A stretch of 64,000 bases of DNA. Origin: Devosia sp. Root413D1 (lineage in GTDB: Bacteria; Pseudomonadota; Alphaproteobacteria; Rhizobiales; Devosiaceae). The notes under the pieces are model-generated. The model was not told where the DNA came from. It made no database searches and saw nothing but the letters and a program-made list of their open reading frames with translations. This document shows positions 1,785 through 9,291 of this stretch, piece by piece (position 1 is the first letter of the stretch; the number at the start of each line of letters is the position of its first letter). The translations under genes and the position numbers were made by a program. The DNA lies in the NCBI RefSeq assembly GCF_001425235.1, contig NZ_LMEA01000011.1, positions 865,523 to 929,522 of the forward strand, in the 5' to 3' direction.

Positions 1785-4037
1785 CTAAGCCCGCAACTGT
1801 CGGGCTGTCTCCACGAGGTTGCGCAACGATGCCTCGACCTCCGGCCAGTTGCGGGTCTTGAGGCCGCAATCCGGGTTGACCCAGAGCTGTTCGCCCGGGA
1901 TGCCCTCCGCGGCCTTCCGCAGCAGCGCCAGCATCTCCGGCTGGCTCGGCACGCGCGGCGCGTGGATGTCCCAGACGCCGGGGCCGATCTCGTTGGGGTA
2001 GCGAAAATCGCGGAACGCTTCGAGCAGCTCCATGGCCGAGCGCGAGGTCTCGATCGAGATCACGTCAGCATCCATCTCAGCGATCGAAGGCATGATATCG
2101 TTGAACTCGGCGTAGCACATATGGGTGTGCACCTGTGTCTGGTCGGTGACACCCGAAGCGGTGATGCGGAAGCAATCGACCGCCCAGCGGAGGTATTCCT
2201 GCCAGTCGCTGCGGCGCAGCGGCAGGCCTTCGCGCAGTGCCGGCTCGTCGATCTGGATGATACCGATGCCGGCCGCTTCGAGGTCGAGCACCTCGTCGCG
2301 GATGGCGAGCGCAATCTGCCGGCAGGTTTCGGCGCGCGGCTGGTCGACCCGCACAAAACTCCATTGCAGGATGGTGACCGGGCCGGTGAGCATGCCCTTC
2401 ATCGGCTTGTCGGTGAGCGACGCCGCATAGGCCGACCAGCGCACTGTCATGGCCTGGGGCCGCGACACATCGCCATAAATCACCGGCGGCTTGACGCAGC
2501 GCGAACCGTAGGATTGCACCCAGCCGTTTCTGGTGAAGGCGAAGCCGTCGAGCTGCTCGCCAAAGTACTCGACCATGTCGTTGCGCTCGAACTCGCCATG
2601 CACCAGCACGTCGAGGCCGATCCGCTCCTGGATGCGCACCGCCCGCTCGGTCTCCGTCTCGAGGAACCGTTCATAGGCAGCCGCGTCGATCTGCCCGTGC
2701 TTGAACGCGGCGCGCTGCTCGCGCACTTCCTGCGTCTGCGGAAACGAGCCGATGGTGGTGGTCGGGAAGGCCGGCAGGCCGAAGCGCCGGCGCTGCGCCG
2801 CTCGGCGGATGGCGAACGGACTGGCGCGATTGAGCGGCAGGCTGGCAGCCGCCCTGCCCTTCACCTCGGCGCGGTGGATGCGTGGCGACTGCCGATGCGA
2901 CAGGGCCGCGGCGGCGCTCGCTTCGAAGGCGGCCCTCGCGGCTGCCGGGCCCTTCTGCATGGCGCGGGTCAGCGCCGACACCTCGCCGAGCTTCTGGGTG
3001 GCGAAAGCCAGCCACGACCGTAGCTCGGGGTCGAGCTCGGTTTCTGCCTCGAGATCCACCGGGCTGTGCAGCAGTGAGCAGGACGGGGCGATCTCGAGCC
3101 GATCAGGGCCGACGCTGTCCCATGCCTTGCTGACCAGCGCCAGCTGCCGGTCGAGATCGGCCCGCCAGATATTGCGGCCATCGATGACGCCGACCGACAG
3201 CAGCTTGTCCGCCGGCAGCGCCTTCAGCACCGCGGGGAGCTGTTCGGGGGCGCGGACGAGATCGACATGGAGGCCCGCCACGTGCAGCCCGGCGGCGAAC
3301 TCGGTATTGTCGCCGAGCGCGCCGAAATAGCTGGTGAGCATGATCCGCGGCGCCACGGGCTGCAGCACCTCATAGGCGTGGCGGAGCGCCGCCCGTTGCG
3401 CCACGCTGTGGTCGAGCGCCAGGATCGGCTCGTCGATCTGCACCCACTCAGCGCCAATCGCCTTCAGCGTGCCGAGCAGTTCGGCATAAACCGGCAGCAC
3501 GGCGTCGAGCAGGGTCAGCGGGTCGAGCCCGTCATCCTTGGGCTTGCCGAGGCTCAGCCAGGTGACCGGACCGACCAGCACCGGCCGCGTCTCGATGCCG
3601 AGCGCCCTGGCCTCGAGCACCTCGTCGACCGCCTTGCTCGAGGCGAGGCGGAACTGCTGGCCGCGATACAGCTCGGGCACGATGTAGTGGTAATTGGTGT
3701 CGAACCACTTGGTCATCTCCATTGCCGGCGCTGCGGCCGTGCCGCGCGCCATGGCGAAATAGCGCTCCGTCGGGTCGGCGATGGCCTCGAACCGTGGCGG
3801 GATGGCGCCAAGCGTCGCGGTCATGTCGAGCACGTGGTCGTAAAAGCTGAAATCGTTGGACGGGATCACCTCGATCCCGGCGTCGCGCTGCAACTGCCAA
3901 TGGCGGGCGCGCAGCGCCTGGCCGGAGGCGTCGAGGGCCTCTGCGTCGATCGCCCCCTTCCAGTAGGCTTCAAGGGATTTCTTCAATTCGCGATGGAGGC
4001 CGATACGGGGAAAGCCGAGATTGGCTGAACGGGTCAT
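1785..4037 (-). CDS. metE: Cobalamin-independent methionine synthase
   Basis: Cytosolic enzyme transferring the methyl group of 5-methyltetrahydrofolate (polyglutamate) to homocysteine without B12. 750 aa, the usual length. The N-terminal half begins [12 protein letters not shown]; the C-terminal catalytic half has [23 protein letters not shown] and the zinc ligands in H-T-H-M-C-Y and N-P-D-C-G-L-K. The start at 4037 is chosen because family homology begins there and GGAAA lies six bases upstream; an upstream extension has no family similarity. A full-length cobalamin riboswitch precedes it, so expression should fall when B12 is present. Confidence 0.97.
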
Positions 4038-4272
4038 GGTGTTTTCCGATGCGTGAACGGGCCCGGCGCCGAAAAGCGCGGGCAAAAAAGCTGATCAGGA
4101 TGGAGCCGGTCGCCGGAGCGTTTTCAGGAAAAGTTGTGAGACTTTTCCGGTTCGAAAGCGCGACAACGAAAGGCCGCCGGTTCAGCGACGCATTCGGAAG
4201 TGGTGACGATGGTTCGTCATGGTCTGGTCCTCTCGCCGATCCGCCCGATCGACTGCAAGTGCACAATCACTT

Positions 4273-4440
4273 CCACGGTAGGTCTCCTGGCTCGCGGGGA
4301 TCCTGAACGCTCGCCTTCCCGGCTTCTCGCCAGTGGCTCGTTGAGCGCCCATCACCGCCTACAGTTGCGGGGGCAGCTCCGGACTTGGGGACCACCCCCA
4401 TACCGGATTCCCTGTTATCCCCTTGCGGGGACCATGGACG
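4273..4440 (-). promoter_or_regulatory. Cobalamin riboswitch (full-length) for metE
   Basis: Read on the minus strand, this leader carries the conserved B12 blocks in order: AACAGGGAATCCGGTATG, TCCGGAGCTGCCCCCGCAAC with TGTA, the GCCACTGG...CCGGGAAGGC arm, and AGCCAGGAGACCTACCGTGG. All major elements of the classical aptamer are visible. It ends about 235 bases before metE. B12 control of the B12-independent synthase is a well-established arrangement. Confidence 0.93.
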
Positions 4441-4516
4441 GGGTGAGGTTGCCGCAGGGATGGGGCGCTGTCAACGGGACATAAAGATTCCTTTATATGA
4501 CACCGATGGCCGAAGA

Positions 4517-4544
4517 TTGACGCGAATCTAAATATGCGTAGGTT
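4517..4544 (+). promoter_or_regulatory. Candidate promoter for the first nrd-side riboswitch
   Basis: TTGACG (4517-4522) and TAGGTT (4539-4544) are spaced 16 bases apart, ending just before the first aptamer. A TTGACGCGA block sits at the same offset (35-36 bases) before the second aptamer, which supports the call. Confidence 0.4.
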
Positions 4545-4551
4545 TTGCCCT

Positions 4552-4684
4552 GTGTCGTGGTCGCCTGAGTCGCAAGGACGGGCGATAATAGGGAAGCCGG
4601 TGCGGGCAAATTGCTCCTGTCCGGCGCTGCCCCCGCAACTGTGATAGTCGGCTACGCCGACCAGCCAGATACCTGCCACGACAG
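4552..4684 (+). promoter_or_regulatory. Compact cobalamin riboswitch, copy 1
   Basis: TGTCGTGG (4553-4560) pairs perfectly with CCACGACA (4676-4683) to close the aptamer. Inside are AATAGGGAAGCCGGTGCGGG, GTCCGGCGCTGCCCCCGCAA followed by CTGTGA, and CAGCCAGATACCTG. Unlike the metE aptamer, no GCCACTG...GGGAAGG arm follows the CAACTGT block, so this is a shortened form. A micro-ORF starts 38 bases downstream, and a near-copy of the aptamer follows about 364 bases later, ahead of nrdA. Confidence 0.9.
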
Positions 4685-4722
4685 GTTCAATCAAAAAACC
4701 GAGCAGTTAACGGGGTATCCTT

Positions 4723-4839
4723 GTGACTAGTGATGTCTTGTCGTGGCTTGATGCCGTTCTATCTCATCCATTCCTCCTTGCTGTGGTCCCGGTGGTCGGC
4801 GCGATCATCGTCGCTCGCATGTCGCAGCGGCGGAAATGA
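4723..4839 (+). CDS. Small membrane protein between tandem riboswitches (38 aa)
   Basis: A GTG-started frame of 38 codons with GGGG eight bases upstream. The product has a short amphipathic head (T-S-D-V-L-S-W-L-D), one hydrophobic segment rich in Val/Ala/Ile (about residues 17-31), and a basic tail R-M-S-Q-R-R-K: a single-pass inner-membrane design with cytoplasmic C-terminus. It lies directly downstream of one B12 aptamer and upstream of the next, so it is the natural target of the first switch. No family recognised. A leader remnant without translation is the alternative. Confidence 0.5.
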   Translation: MTSDVLSWLDAVLSHPFLLAVVPVVGAIIVARMSQRRK

Positions 4840-4848
4840 CCCGTGAGT

Positions 4849-4877
4849 GAGGATTGCGTCATCAAGACGTGATCCTC
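4849..4877 (+). terminator. Hairpin between small ORF and second riboswitch
   Basis: GAGGAT-TG-CGTC-ATCAA-GACG-TG-ATCCTC folds into a two-part stem with one small internal bulge, 10 bases after the micro-ORF stop. There is no T-run. It could separate the first transcript from the second promoter. Confidence 0.35.
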
Positions 4878-4879
4878 GC

Positions 4880-4908
4880 TTGACGCGACCCCCGAACGAG
4901 ACCACTAC
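4880..4908 (+). promoter_or_regulatory. Candidate promoter for the second nrd-side riboswitch
   Basis: TTGACG (4880-4885) followed about 18 bases later by ACTACA. The block TTGACGCGA is shared with the region at 4517 and stands at nearly the same distance from its aptamer. The -10 match is weak. Confidence 0.35.
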
Positions 4909-4916
4909 ATCTAGTG

Positions 4917-5046
4917 TGTCGTGGTCACTCGGGTCGCAAGGACGGGTGATAATAGGGAAGCCGGTGCGGGCAATTGCTCCAGTCCGGCGCTGCCCCCGCA
5001 ACTGTGATAGCCGGCGCTGCCGGCCAGCCAGATACCTGCCACGACA
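4917..5046 (+). promoter_or_regulatory. Compact cobalamin riboswitch, copy 2, leading nrdA
   Basis: TGTCGTGG (4917-4924) pairs with CCACGACA (5039-5046). The core is nearly identical to copy 1: GATAATAGGGAAGCCGGTGC, GGCGCTGCCCCCGCAACTGT, CAGCCAGATACCTG. The arm before CAGCCAG differs only in its loop (CCGGCGCTGCCGG against GTCGGCTACGCCGAC). It ends 123 bases before nrdA; a CCCCG...CGGGG hairpin (about 5136-5156) next to the nrdA start region could form the expression platform. Confidence 0.92.
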
Positions 5047-5169
5047 GGTTAGTTCGTCCACGGGCGGGGTGCACCGGTTGGCCGCGAAAACGCTTGGGCC
5101 AGTTGCGCCTGCGCGCCGTTTCGCGACCTCGGAAAGCCCCGCTGCCACTCACGGGGTTACTTGAGGCAC

Positions 5170-8052
5170 ATGTCCACTTCAGAGATCGTCCATTCCGACA
5201 CCGGCCGCCCGGTTGTCGTCACCTCACCCGAGCCGCACGCGGCCAATGCGCCGGGCTTCTCGCTGCTGAAGCGCAATGGCGGCACTGTGCCGTTCGATCA
5301 GAGCAAGATTGCCGTGGCGCTGACCAAGGCGTTCCTGGCGGTCGAAGGCAACAAGGCGGCCGCCTCGCGCCGGGTGCACGAAATCGTCGAGCAACTGACC
5401 GAGGAAGTGGTGGCGGCTTTGGTCCGCCGGGCCAAGGATGGCCGGGTGTTCCATATCGAGGACGTGCAGGATCAGGTCGAGCTGGCGCTGATGCGCGGCG
5501 AACACCAGAAGGTCGCCCGCGCCTATGTGCTCTACCGCGAGGAGCACGCCAAGGCCCGCGCCGACACGGCGGTGGCGCCCGCGTCCCCCGCGATCCGCAT
5601 GGCCGATGGCGCGCCGCTCGACGAAGCGCGCCTCGCCACGGTCATCGCCGAAGCCTCTGCCGGCCTCGACGGCGTGGTCGCCGAGACCATCCTCACCGAG
5701 ACCCGCCGCAACCTCTATGACGGCATTTCCACCGAGGAGCTGGCGCTGGCGCCGATCCTCGCCACCCGCACCCTGGTCGAAACCGAACCCAATTACGCCT
5801 ATGTCTCGGCGCGCCTGCTCAACGACAAGCTGCGCCGCGAAGCGCTGAGCTTTCTCGCCGGCCGCCCCGACCAGGCGACGCAGGCCGAGATGGCGGCCCG
5901 CTATGCCGAGTATTTCCCCGCCTATCTCGAACGCGGCATCGGGCTCGAACTGATCGACCCGGAACTGGGCCGCTTCGACATCGCCCGCATCGCCGCGGCG
6001 CTGCGGCCGGAGCGCGACCAGCAGTTCCAGTATCTGGGGCTGCAGACGCTCTACGACCGCTATTTCCTCCATGCCGCCGGCACGGTGTTCGAGCTGCCGC
6101 AGGCGTTTTTCATGCGCGTCGCCATGGGCCTCGCGGTGCGTGAGATCGACCGCGAAGCCCGCGCCATCGAATTCTACAACCTGCTCTCGAGCTTCGACTT
6201 CATGGCCTCGACCCCGACCTTGTTCAACGCGGGAACGCTGCGGCCGCAGCTCTCGAGCTGCTTTCTCACCACCGTCGCCGACGACCTCGACGGCATCTTC
6301 AAGGCGGTGAAGGACAACGCGCTGCTCGCCAAATATTCCGGCGGGCTCGGCAATGACTGGACCCCGGTGCGGGGGCTCGGTGCCCATATCAAGGGCACCA
6401 ATGGCGAGAGCCAGGGCGTGGTGCCGTTCCTCAAGGTGGCCAACGACACCGCCATCGCCGTGAACCAGGGCGGCAAGCGCAAAGGCGCGGTCTGCGCCTA
6501 TCTCGAGACCTGGCACGTCGATATCGAGGAGTTCCTCGATTTGCGCAAGAACACCGGCGACGACCGCCGCCGCACCCACGACATGAACACTGCCAACTGG
6601 GTACCGGACCTGTTCATGGAGCGCGTCGAAGCCGGCGCCGACTGGACGCTGTTCTCGCCCGACGAAACGCCGGACCTGCACGATCTCTACGGCCCGGCCT
6701 TCAAATCGGCCTATGAAGCCTATGAAGCCAAGGCGGCAGCCGGCCAGATCAAGGTGTTCAAGACGGTCCGGGCGCTCGATCTGTGGCGCAGGATGCTGAC
6801 CATGCTGTTCGAGACCGGCCACCCCTGGGTGACCTTCAAGGACCCCTGCAACATCCGCTCGCCGCAGCAGCATGTCGGCGTGGTGCACTCGTCCAACCTC
6901 TGTACCGAGATCACGCTGAATACCAGCAAGGACGAGGTGGCGGTCTGCAATCTCGGCTCGATCAACCTCCTGGCCCACATCGGCGACCAAGGCCTCGACC
7001 TCGAGCGGCTGCAGCGGACCGTCGCTACCGCGATGCGGATGCTCGACAATGTCGTCGACATCAACTTCTACACCATCCCGGAAGCCCGCCGCTCCAACCT
7101 CCGCCACCGCCCGGTCGGCCTGGGGCTGATGGGCTTTGCCGATGCGCTGCAGGCGCAGGGCATCGCCTATGGCTCGGATGCTGCGGTGGAGTTCGCCGAC
7201 CGCTCGATGGAGGCGATCAGCTACTACGCCATCACCGCCTCGACTAACCTCGCCGAAGAGCGCGGCGCTTACGCCTCGTTCCAGGGCTCACTGTGGTCGA
7301 AGGGCGTACTGCCGATCGACAGCCTCGAAATGCTCGCCGCCACCCGCAGCGAGATCCATATCGACCGCACCCAGCGGCTCGACTGGGAGACGCTCCGCCA
7401 GCGGGTCAAGACGGTTGGGATGCGCAACTCCAACACCATGGCGATTGCCCCGACTGCCACCATCTCGAACATCTGCGGGGTGAGCCAGTCGATCGAGCCG
7501 GGCTACCAGAACCTCTACGTCAAATCGAACATGTCGGGCGATTTCACCGTGGTGAACGCGCTGCTGGTGCGCGACCTCAAGGCCCGTGGCCTGTGGGACG
7601 AGGTGATGATCTCCGACCTCAAATATTTCGACGGCTCGGTCGGCCAGATCGGCCGGGTGCCCGACGACCTCAAGGCCATCTACGCCACGGCGTTCGAGCT
7701 CGATGCGGGCTGGCTGATCGCCGCCGCCTCGCGCCGGCAGAAATGGATCGACCAGGCACAATCGCTGAACCTCTACCTCGCCAACCCCTCGGGCAAGGCG
7801 CTGGACACGCTCTATCGCAGCGCCTGGAAGGCGGGGCTGAAGACCACCTATTACCTGCGTTCGCGCTCGGCGACGCATGTCGAGAAATCGACGCTGAAGG
7901 GGACAGACGGCAAGCTCAACGCCGTGGCGGTGACGCCGGCGGTTGCGGTTGCGCCGGTGGTCGAGGCGCCGAAGAAGCTGGCGTTGGAAATGGCCGTGCT
8001 CGATGGGCCGGCCTGCCTGATCGACGACCCCGACTGCGAAGCCTGCCAGTAA
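5170..8052 (+). CDS. nrdA: Ribonucleotide reductase class I, alpha subunit
   Basis: Reduces ribonucleoside diphosphates to deoxyribonucleotides with NrdB. 960 aa. Residues about 30-125 form an ATP-cone allosteric domain; a further cone-like stretch follows before the barrel. Catalytic residues are visible: C364 (S-S-C-F-L-T), the N576-x-C578-x-E580 site (N-L-C-T-E-I), C593 (V-C-N-L-G-S-I-N), the Y-Y pair in T-T-Y-Y-L-R-S-R, and the C-terminal redox pair C956/C959 two residues from the end. The ATG at 5170 follows TGAGG closely; a TTG three codons earlier is possible. Cobalamin-riboswitch control suggests use when B12 (hence any class II enzyme) is limiting. Confidence 0.96.
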   Translation: MSTSEIVHSDTGRPVVVTSPEPHAANAPGFSLLKRNGGTVPFDQSKIAVALTKAFLAVEGNKAAASRRVHEIVEQLTEEVVAALVRRAKDGRVFHIEDVQDQVELALMRGEHQKVARAYVLYREEHAKARADTAVAPASPAIRMADGAPLDEARLATVIAEASAGLDGVVAETILTETRRNLYDGISTEELALAPILATRTLVETEPNYAYVSARLLNDKLRREALSFLAGRPDQATQAEMAARYAEYFPAYLERGIGLELIDPELGRFDIARIAAALRPERDQQFQYLGLQTLYDRYFLHAAGTVFELPQAFFMRVAMGLAVREIDREARAIEFYNLLSSFDFMASTPTLFNAGTLRPQLSSCFLTTVADDLDGIFKAVKDNALLAKYSGGLGNDWTPVRGLGAHIKGTNGESQGVVPFLKVANDTAIAVNQGGKRKGAVCAYLETWHVDIEEFLDLRKNTGDDRRRTHDMNTANWVPDLFMERVEAGADWTLFSPDETPDLHDLYGPAFKSAYEAYEAKAAAGQIKVFKTVRALDLWRRMLTMLFETGHPWVTFKDPCNIRSPQQHVGVVHSSNLCTEITLNTSKDEVAVCNLGSINLLAHIGDQGLDLERLQRTVATAMRMLDNVVDINFYTIPEARRSNLRHRPVGLGLMGFADALQAQGIAYGSDAAVEFADRSMEAISYYAITASTNLAEERGAYASFQGSLWSKGVLPIDSLEMLAATRSEIHIDRTQRLDWETLRQRVKTVGMRNSNTMAIAPTATISNICGVSQSIEPGYQNLYVKSNMSGDFTVVNALLVRDLKARGLWDEVMISDLKYFDGSVGQIGRVPDDLKAIYATAFELDAGWLIAAASRRQKWIDQAQSLNLYLANPSGKALDTLYRSAWKAGLKTTYYLRSRSATHVEKSTLKGTDGKLNAVAVTPAVAVAPVVEAPKKLALEMAVLDGPACLIDDPDCEACQ

Positions 8053-8193: not shown

Positions 8194-9291
8194 ATGTCCC
8201 TCGATTGGTCCCAGGACCTACCCAATAACCACCTCCCCGCCCCTGCTCCCGAAGCCCGCATCGATCGCGCCGGCGGCCGTGTCTCGGTCGACGACAAGGC
8301 GATGATCAACTGCCGCGCCGACGTGAACCAGCTGCTGCCGCTGAAGTACAAATGGGCCTGGGAGAAATACCTCGCCGGCTGCAACAACCACTGGATGCCG
8401 ACCGAAGTCTCCATGCAGGCCGACATCGCACTGTGGAAATCGAAGGATGGCCTCACCGATGACGAGCGCCACACGCTGAAGCGCAATCTCGGCTTCTTTG
8501 CCGCCTCGGAAAGCCTCGTCGCCAACAACATCGTCTTGGCGATCTACCGGCACCTCACCAACCCGGAATGCCGGCAATATCTGCTGCGCCAGGCCTTCGA
8601 GGAGGCGGTGCACACCCACACCTTCCAGTACATCGTCGAGAGCCTCGGCCTCGATGAGGGCGAGCTGTTCAACATGTATCGCGAGGTGCCCTCGATCACC
8701 GACAAGGCGGCCTGGGCACTGAACTTCACCCAGCACCTCGACGATCCGGATTTTACCACCGGCACGCCCGATACCGACCGCGCGTTCGTGCGCGACCTGA
8801 TTGCCTTCTACGTGATCTTCGAGGGCATGTGGTTCTATACCGGCTTCGCGCAGATCCTGTCGCTGGGCCGCCGCAACAAGATGGTCGGCATCGCCGAGCA
8901 GTACCAGTATATCCTGCGCGACGAGAGCATCCATCTGAACTTCGGCATCGACGTGATCAACCAGATCAAGGCGGAGAACCCGCATGTCTGGACGCCCGAG
9001 TTCCAGACCGAAGTGCGCGACATGATCAGGAAGGCCGCCGAGCTCGAAGCCGCCTATAGCCGCGACACCATGCCGAGGGGCTTTCTCGGCCTCAACGCGG
9101 CGCTCTGCGAGCAATACATGCACTTCATCGCCAACCGCCGCTGCGCCCAGCTCGGCCTCGCCTCGGTGTTCGGCGAGACCGAAAACCCGTTCCCCTGGAT
9201 GAGCGAGGCGATGGATCTGAAAAAAGAGAAGAACTTCTTCGAGACCCGCGTCATCGAATACCAGAACGGGGGCGCCCTGAGCTGGGATTGA
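8194..9291 (+). CDS. nrdB: Ribonucleotide reductase class I beta subunit, class Ic-like
   Basis: Radical-generating partner of NrdA, 365 aa, ferritin-like fold. By alignment to E. coli NrdB spacing the metal ligands are E106 (Asp84 in E. coli), E137, H140, E210, E244 and H247. The residue four after H140, which is the radical Tyr122 in E. coli, is F144; a Tyr stands two later (Y146). Glu as first ligand plus Phe at the radical site is the class Ic pattern known from Chlamydia trachomatis, where a Mn/Fe centre stores the oxidant. [12 protein letters not shown] and [10 protein letters not shown] read like that family. AAGGA lies upstream of the ATG. Confidence 0.95.

Follow-up and report, generated by a model that had tools for sequence, protein, structure and literature searches.

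Control of a B12-independent RNR by a B12 element in genomes that also carry NrdJ had been proposed by 2004 and was credited to earlier work (PMC545781); in the passages of that study devoted to the point, the example is NrdDG in deltaproteobacteria and the metal class of R2 goes unmentioned. In Streptomyces coelicolor, a B12 riboswitch is reported to control nrdABS (Borovok 2006, cited in a section of PMC4991794); that section assigns the enzyme to class Ia and mentions an AraC-like nrdS. Class Ic RNR has also been well described in the relevant parts of three papers (PMC8463856, PMC4118035, PMC9936198), two of which between them give its features as Phe replacing Tyr, Glu as the first ligand and F197 close to the metals (PMC4118035, PMC9936198). 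Both halves of the system presented here, a class Ic RNR and a backup RNR behind a B12 riboswitch, are already known biology. A statement pairing the two was not found in the open-access listings and passages searched, and one class Ic paper that mentions a riboswitch refers, in the passage concerned, to one of the Mn type (PMC9936198).

We compared these systems with the nrdAB operon in a window from Devosia sp. Root413D1 (the window is the whole stretch of 64,000 nucleotides analysed). Its logic is like that of the case in PMC545781, and, as far as the published description in PMC4991794 goes, S. coelicolor nrdABS resembles it in that a class I RNR independent of B12 lies behind a B12 riboswitch in a genome that carries NrdJ. 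The features are as follows.

1785..4085, minus strand: metE, B12-independent methionine synthase, divergent neighbour of nrdAB (NF003556, 1153.5 bits; TIGR01371, 1095.1 bits; each above its cut-off)
4260..4451, minus strand: cobalamin aptamer of metE (RF00174, 118.5 bits)
4517..4522, plus strand: TTGACG, possible -35 ahead of aptamer 1; a good -10 was not found
4541..4694, plus strand: first cobalamin aptamer (aptamer 1) in the nrdAB leader, the extra copy (RF00174, 73.6 bits; short form without the peripheral arm)
4723..4839, plus strand: possible 38-codon ORF between the aptamers (GTG start, one hydrophobic stretch; may be spurious)
4880..4885, plus strand: TTGACG, likely -35 before aptamer 2; TTGACG also at the matching place in L006, L175 and L177
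4905..5057, plus strand: cobalamin aptamer 2, the copy common to other genomes of the genus (RF00174, 79.4 bits)
5127..5166, plus strand: hairpin, likely translational off-switch; likely Shine-Dalgarno GAGG (5163-5166) paired with CCTC (5127-5130)
5170..8052, plus strand: nrdA, class I large subunit, ATG at 5170, one Pfam ATP-cone (NF005544, 1671.1 bits; PF02867, PF00317, PF03477)
8194..9291, plus strand: nrdB, class Ic-type R2 of 365 aa (NF005550, 676 bits; PDB matches 6y2n and 1syy; assigned with residue map and tree)

It is highly probable that nrdAB serves as a backup RNR of class Ic type beside NrdJ, presumably repressed by B12. The genome of the window (G000, 5.85 Mb) has a single R2 gene, with NrdA also present, and a B12-dependent NrdJ over cut-off (NF005736, 2249.4 bits) whose gene lies on G000:C7. 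Six RF00174 matches were found in this genome, belonging to nrdAB (two), metE, cbtB-cbtA-cobW, a hupE-like HupE/UreJ gene and an ABC importer, the last of which reached no NCBIfam cut-off. CobN is encoded about 5 kb beyond the riboswitch-preceded cbtB-cbtA-cobW, and its presence makes de novo B12 synthesis likely. The cobalamin-sparing role that the initial annotation had proposed for nrdAB is supported by the upstream aptamers, the NrdJ of the genome and the neighbouring metE, which is also behind a B12 aptamer. We propose that nrdAB would act as an oxygen-dependent, B12-independent RNR of class Ic type, backing up the class II NrdJ of the same genome. With adenosylcobalamin plentiful, the leader aptamer or aptamers would bind it, a hairpin would hide the ribosome-binding site, and deoxynucleotides would come from NrdJ; with cobalt or B12 short, nrdAB and the divergent metE would be expressed instead, metE probably having a B12-dependent methionine synthase as its counterpart. 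Radical transfer to NrdA would start from the metal centre of NrdB, for which the Mn(IV)/Fe(III) form known from Chlamydia is the most likely, instead of from a tyrosyl radical.

The Shine-Dalgarno hairpin just before nrdA folds in all four leaders compared from the genus with changes on both strands, the pairing being kept where the Shine-Dalgarno differs (L006) and where the partner strand differs (L177); within the genus, aptamer 2 is also conserved, as is the TTGACG before it. The hairpin fold alone is not exceptional (z -1.43), and whole-leader folds were no stabler than shuffles (z -1.35 and 0.35). Since the hairpin is kept and a scan of the plus strand of 4100-5300 gave no terminator-like site, the comparison of these few sequences, four in number, points to translational control.

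With flanks, aptamers 1 and 2 are 78.7% identical, and aptamer 2 shares 90.5% identity with the one aptamer that L006 has. Aptamer 1 is missing from the leaders of L006, L175 and L177, and no second same-strand aptamer lies within 1 kb of the first in L175, L177 or the 65 aptamer-bearing relatives (of the best 80 of 594 confirmed stretches, described below). When 60 other genomes of the family were searched with the block 4470-4900, its matches outside the aptamer were limited to short ones of 27 and 50 bases. The extra block 4541-4900, made up of an aptamer, its own TTGACG and the possible ORF, was found in no sampled relative. Tandem riboswitches are already known, namely THI elements (PMC545781) and SAM-Cbl (PMC9600662), according to the passages on them, and the doubled aptamer before nrdAB is mildly new. 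Both leader aptamers are short forms; most of 22 aligned aptamers keep the peripheral arm. The nrdA aptamers of the genus (4541-5057 in the window, L006 and L175) are short and without this arm, which suggests a change of aptamer class.

A TTGACG precedes each aptamer, and an ORF with a hydrophobic stretch sits between them, so there may be two transcription units, aptamer 1 controlling the 38-codon ORF and aptamer 2 controlling nrdAB. We regard this arrangement as rather unlikely: the ORF matched no family in Pfam or NCBIfam and has no clear relative, its stretch giving a single partial match of 50 bases at 80% in the 60 other genomes of the family, and aptamer 1 is without a good -10, a generic promoter scan having found no promoter ahead of it.

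NrdB is class Ic by sequence. The initial annotation had named E106, E137, H140 and F144, and all four are at these positions in the translated ORF. In a three-way alignment with 6y2n and 1syy, using residue numbers and roles that we take to hold for C. trachomatis R2c, the metal ligands E106, E137, H140, E210, E244 and H247 of NrdB fall on E89, E120, H123, E193, E227 and H230 of R2c, the radical-site residue F144 on F127, and W67, Y146, F214, Y239, D243 and Y356 on W51, Y129, F197, Y222, D226 and Y338, so that 13 of 13 mapped residues are identical. By alignment columns and E. coli numbering, E106 and F144 presumably correspond to E. coli Asp84 and Tyr122. NrdB thus has the Phe at the radical position, the Glu first ligand and all six ligands of class Ic, and, with E106 and F144, not the Asp first ligand and Tyr radical site of classes Ia and Ib. 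The same Glu, Glu, His and Phe stand at the four positions in all 80 close relatives (the best 80 of the 594 confirmed stretches), and Asp/Tyr stand at the matching columns in most of a separate sample of 90 R2 genes.

A PDB search with NrdB gave 6y2n at E 1.7e-204, the C. trachomatis R2c entries at 2.3e-136 to 7.1e-136 and the next match at 7.3e-42. The first is the R2 of Saccharopolyspora erythraea, of actinobacterial source, which the relevant passages present as solved in a beamline case study (PMC7467353); NrdB is 85.2% identical to it over 338 positions, with the HTHTF motif in both. Identity to R2c (1syy, 339 positions; further entries 2ani, 4d8f, 4m1h and 4m1i) is 58.4%; the two are alike in radical site, first ligand, mapped residues and clade, whereas the Devosia genome also encodes a class II NrdJ and has nrdAB behind a B12 leader. 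In a midpoint-rooted FastTree tree of 93 sequences, a clade of 17 members (support 0.997) unites NrdB with 6y2n, R2c and 14 of the sampled Glu/Phe genes. This grouping, with Phe and not Tyr aligned at the radical position, upholds the class Ic assignment of the initial annotation.

A second Glu/Phe type of R2 (EANHVMAF or EANHCMSF) is present in three actinobacteria (L211-L213) outside the Chlamydia-type clade, with a B12 riboswitch upstream, and the common ancestor of all Phe types on the tree also includes Glu/Tyr and Asp/Tyr genes. The R2 genes L124, L125, L183, L186 and L172 combine a Glu first ligand with a Tyr radical site, so that the usual pair of residues places them in neither class Ia nor class Ic; the motif LNESIHAE.Y is found in the first four, and L186 is below every NCBIfam cut-off.

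A Mn/Fe centre cannot be concluded from the NrdB residues alone; a review cautions, in its passage on this question, that the first ligand does not dictate metal choice in the R2 fold (PMC4118035). This caution, together with an account of 6y2n whose relevant passages name no metal (PMC7467353), would allow a NrdB that lacks the radical Tyr but holds a high-valent Fe/Fe or Mn/Mn cofactor; we consider such a cofactor improbable, as NrdB is 58% identical to the Chlamydia Mn/Fe enzyme with every mapped residue conserved. A Mn/Fe centre is the cofactor we prefer for NrdB.

Among the 80 close relatives, aptamers were called by a looser B12-box regex, a covariance model and Rfam (a strict B12-box regex missed most of them), and 75 were assessable, too little upstream DNA being present in L005, L009, L037, L061 and L065. 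A same-strand cobalamin aptamer lies 2.4 to 3.8 kb upstream of nrdB, at the start of nrdA, in 65 of the 75: 48 with alphaproteobacterial titles (one given only as Pseudomonadota), 6 Acidobacteria, 10 Actinobacteria and 1 Eremiobacterota MAG. These include L080, whose Rfam-confirmed aptamer (G036:C29) is at 2,388 bases with nrdA just downstream, and L074 and L077, which were settled by Rfam. Rfam found no aptamer in the other ten (L013, L029, L052, L055, L060, L062, L063, L073, L078 and L081). Many named relatives among the matches listed are from genera such as Bradyrhizobium, Kaistia and Mesorhizobium, which are of environmental habit. The operon is patchy, since a full or nearly full nrdB is present in 6 of 19 genomes of the genus and an R2 over cut-off in 14 of 81 genomes of the order sample; class Ic residues were found in 8 of 13 R2 genes fetched from the order. 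Remnants of the 3' end of nrdB occur in two other genomes of the genus (L178, 7004-7156, 51 residues; L179, 3001-3105, 38 residues), in one of which (G155) a full nrdB was not seen, and they are consistent with repeated loss of the operon.

The sample of 90 R2 genes comprised 53 of 59 class-wide rows (leaving out the window's own gene, one fragment and four weak matches), 13 of 15 order rows (leaving out the window's own gene and one weak match), 4 genus loci and 20 of 25 actinobacterial rows (leaving out G034, already present as L077, G278 and three rows of 61-71 bits). With L164, L176, L180 and L183 dropped for less than 4 kb upstream, 86 loci were assessed, riboswitch distance being measured from the R2 domain. 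A riboswitch was upstream of 14 of 15 Glu/Phe, 0 of 4 Glu/Tyr and 18 of 67 Asp/Tyr genes; the Asp/Tyr carriers are 7 of 8 members of an alphaproteobacterial clade, 10 of 10 of an actinobacterial clade, and L191, which exceeds the TIGR04171 cut-off and is a class Ib NrdF. We had also considered that the riboswitch-controlled RNR of Streptomyces is class Ic in general, and dropped this, as 10 of the 15 sampled actinobacterial R2 genes that bear a riboswitch are Asp/Tyr; a Glu/Phe gene behind a riboswitch does occur in L077 (Streptomyces nanshensis). At L159, a Mn2+ riboswitch (2748-2851, minus strand; RF00080, 63.7 bits) is followed by a 196-aa ORF (2048-2638) and then by an Asp/Tyr-type nrdB; it was set aside as a control of nrdB because it precedes this membrane-protein ORF, which we take to resemble a Mn exporter.

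NrdJ was called by TIGR02504 over cut-off in 80 genomes, 42 of which, the window's included, were positive. This scored 79 of the 86 loci; L131, L133 and L174 (no riboswitch) and L175 and L177 (riboswitch) are in genomes outside the search, and L207 and L210 (both with a riboswitch) were left unscored for partial NrdJ matches. Loci with a riboswitch were 28 with NrdJ and 0 without, and loci lacking one were 12 and 39 (Fisher P = 4e-12, genomes treated as independent although they are related); for Tyr-type loci only, the counts were 16 and 0 against 11 and 39 (Fisher P = 1.5e-8, likewise). The 12 NrdJ-positive loci without a riboswitch are 11 of Tyr type and 1 of Phe type, and an Rfam recheck found no upstream cobalamin aptamer at any of them (two being checked also at an unlinked nrdA), nor at the R2 locus of any of the 39 NrdJ-negative loci, in at least 8 of which (L141, L157, L158, L163, L195-L198) nrdA is at least 7 kb off and its own leader lies outside the search. 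A second test drew on 43 class Ic relatives from the 75 named, with all ten riboswitch-free ones deliberately included; some genomes may be shared with the 79 loci. Here 32 riboswitch-bearing relatives had NrdJ and 1 (L033) had none detected, and the riboswitch-free ones were divided 5 and 5 (P = 0.0014, genomes treated as independent); thus 32 of 37 relatives with NrdJ carry the riboswitch, and 5 of 6 without NrdJ are free of it. The nrdAB riboswitch tracks the presence of NrdJ and not the metal type.

That the B12-independent role was given specifically to class Ic because it exchanges cobalt for manganese, with B12 control functionally coupled to this type of enzyme, is hardly likely: the riboswitch does precede 14 of 15 Phe-type against 18 of 71 Tyr-type loci (67 Asp/Tyr and 4 Glu/Tyr), and 12 of 13 against 16 of 27 in NrdJ genomes alone (P = 0.06), but the two Asp/Tyr clades carry it equally regularly, and it is missing from 5 of the 6 class Ic relatives without NrdJ among the 43 searched. 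The special coupling of a Mn-type enzyme to B12 control in the initial annotation is not supported, and the notion that such control is peculiar to class Ic was rejected, as in the loci sampled the riboswitch also precedes Asp/Tyr R2 genes, class Ib included, and follows NrdJ, not Phe or Tyr. The link of metal, oxygen and vitamin status claimed there holds in its vitamin part, through the aptamers, NrdJ and metE; its oxygen part is generic to class I RNRs, and the special Mn-B12 tie finds no support. The reading of nrdAB as a B12-repressed backup to NrdJ is the one we favour.

Class Ic as a common backup RNR is mildly new. We put forward tentatively, at somewhat less than even confidence, that class Ic may be a common backup against cobalt shortage in bacteria of environmental habit from no fewer than three large groups, and not mainly an enzyme of pathogens or extremophiles, the riboswitch being kept with NrdJ and tending to be lost with it, and the metal used for making DNA precursors being switched from cobalt to manganese/iron. 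The findings suggest that class Ic has an ecological role beyond pathogens, and they give a testable rule, that the nrdAB riboswitch accompanies NrdJ and not the metal type. Further, the system of the window is harmless and could be used for class Ic work, and it may be inducible by B12 withdrawal.
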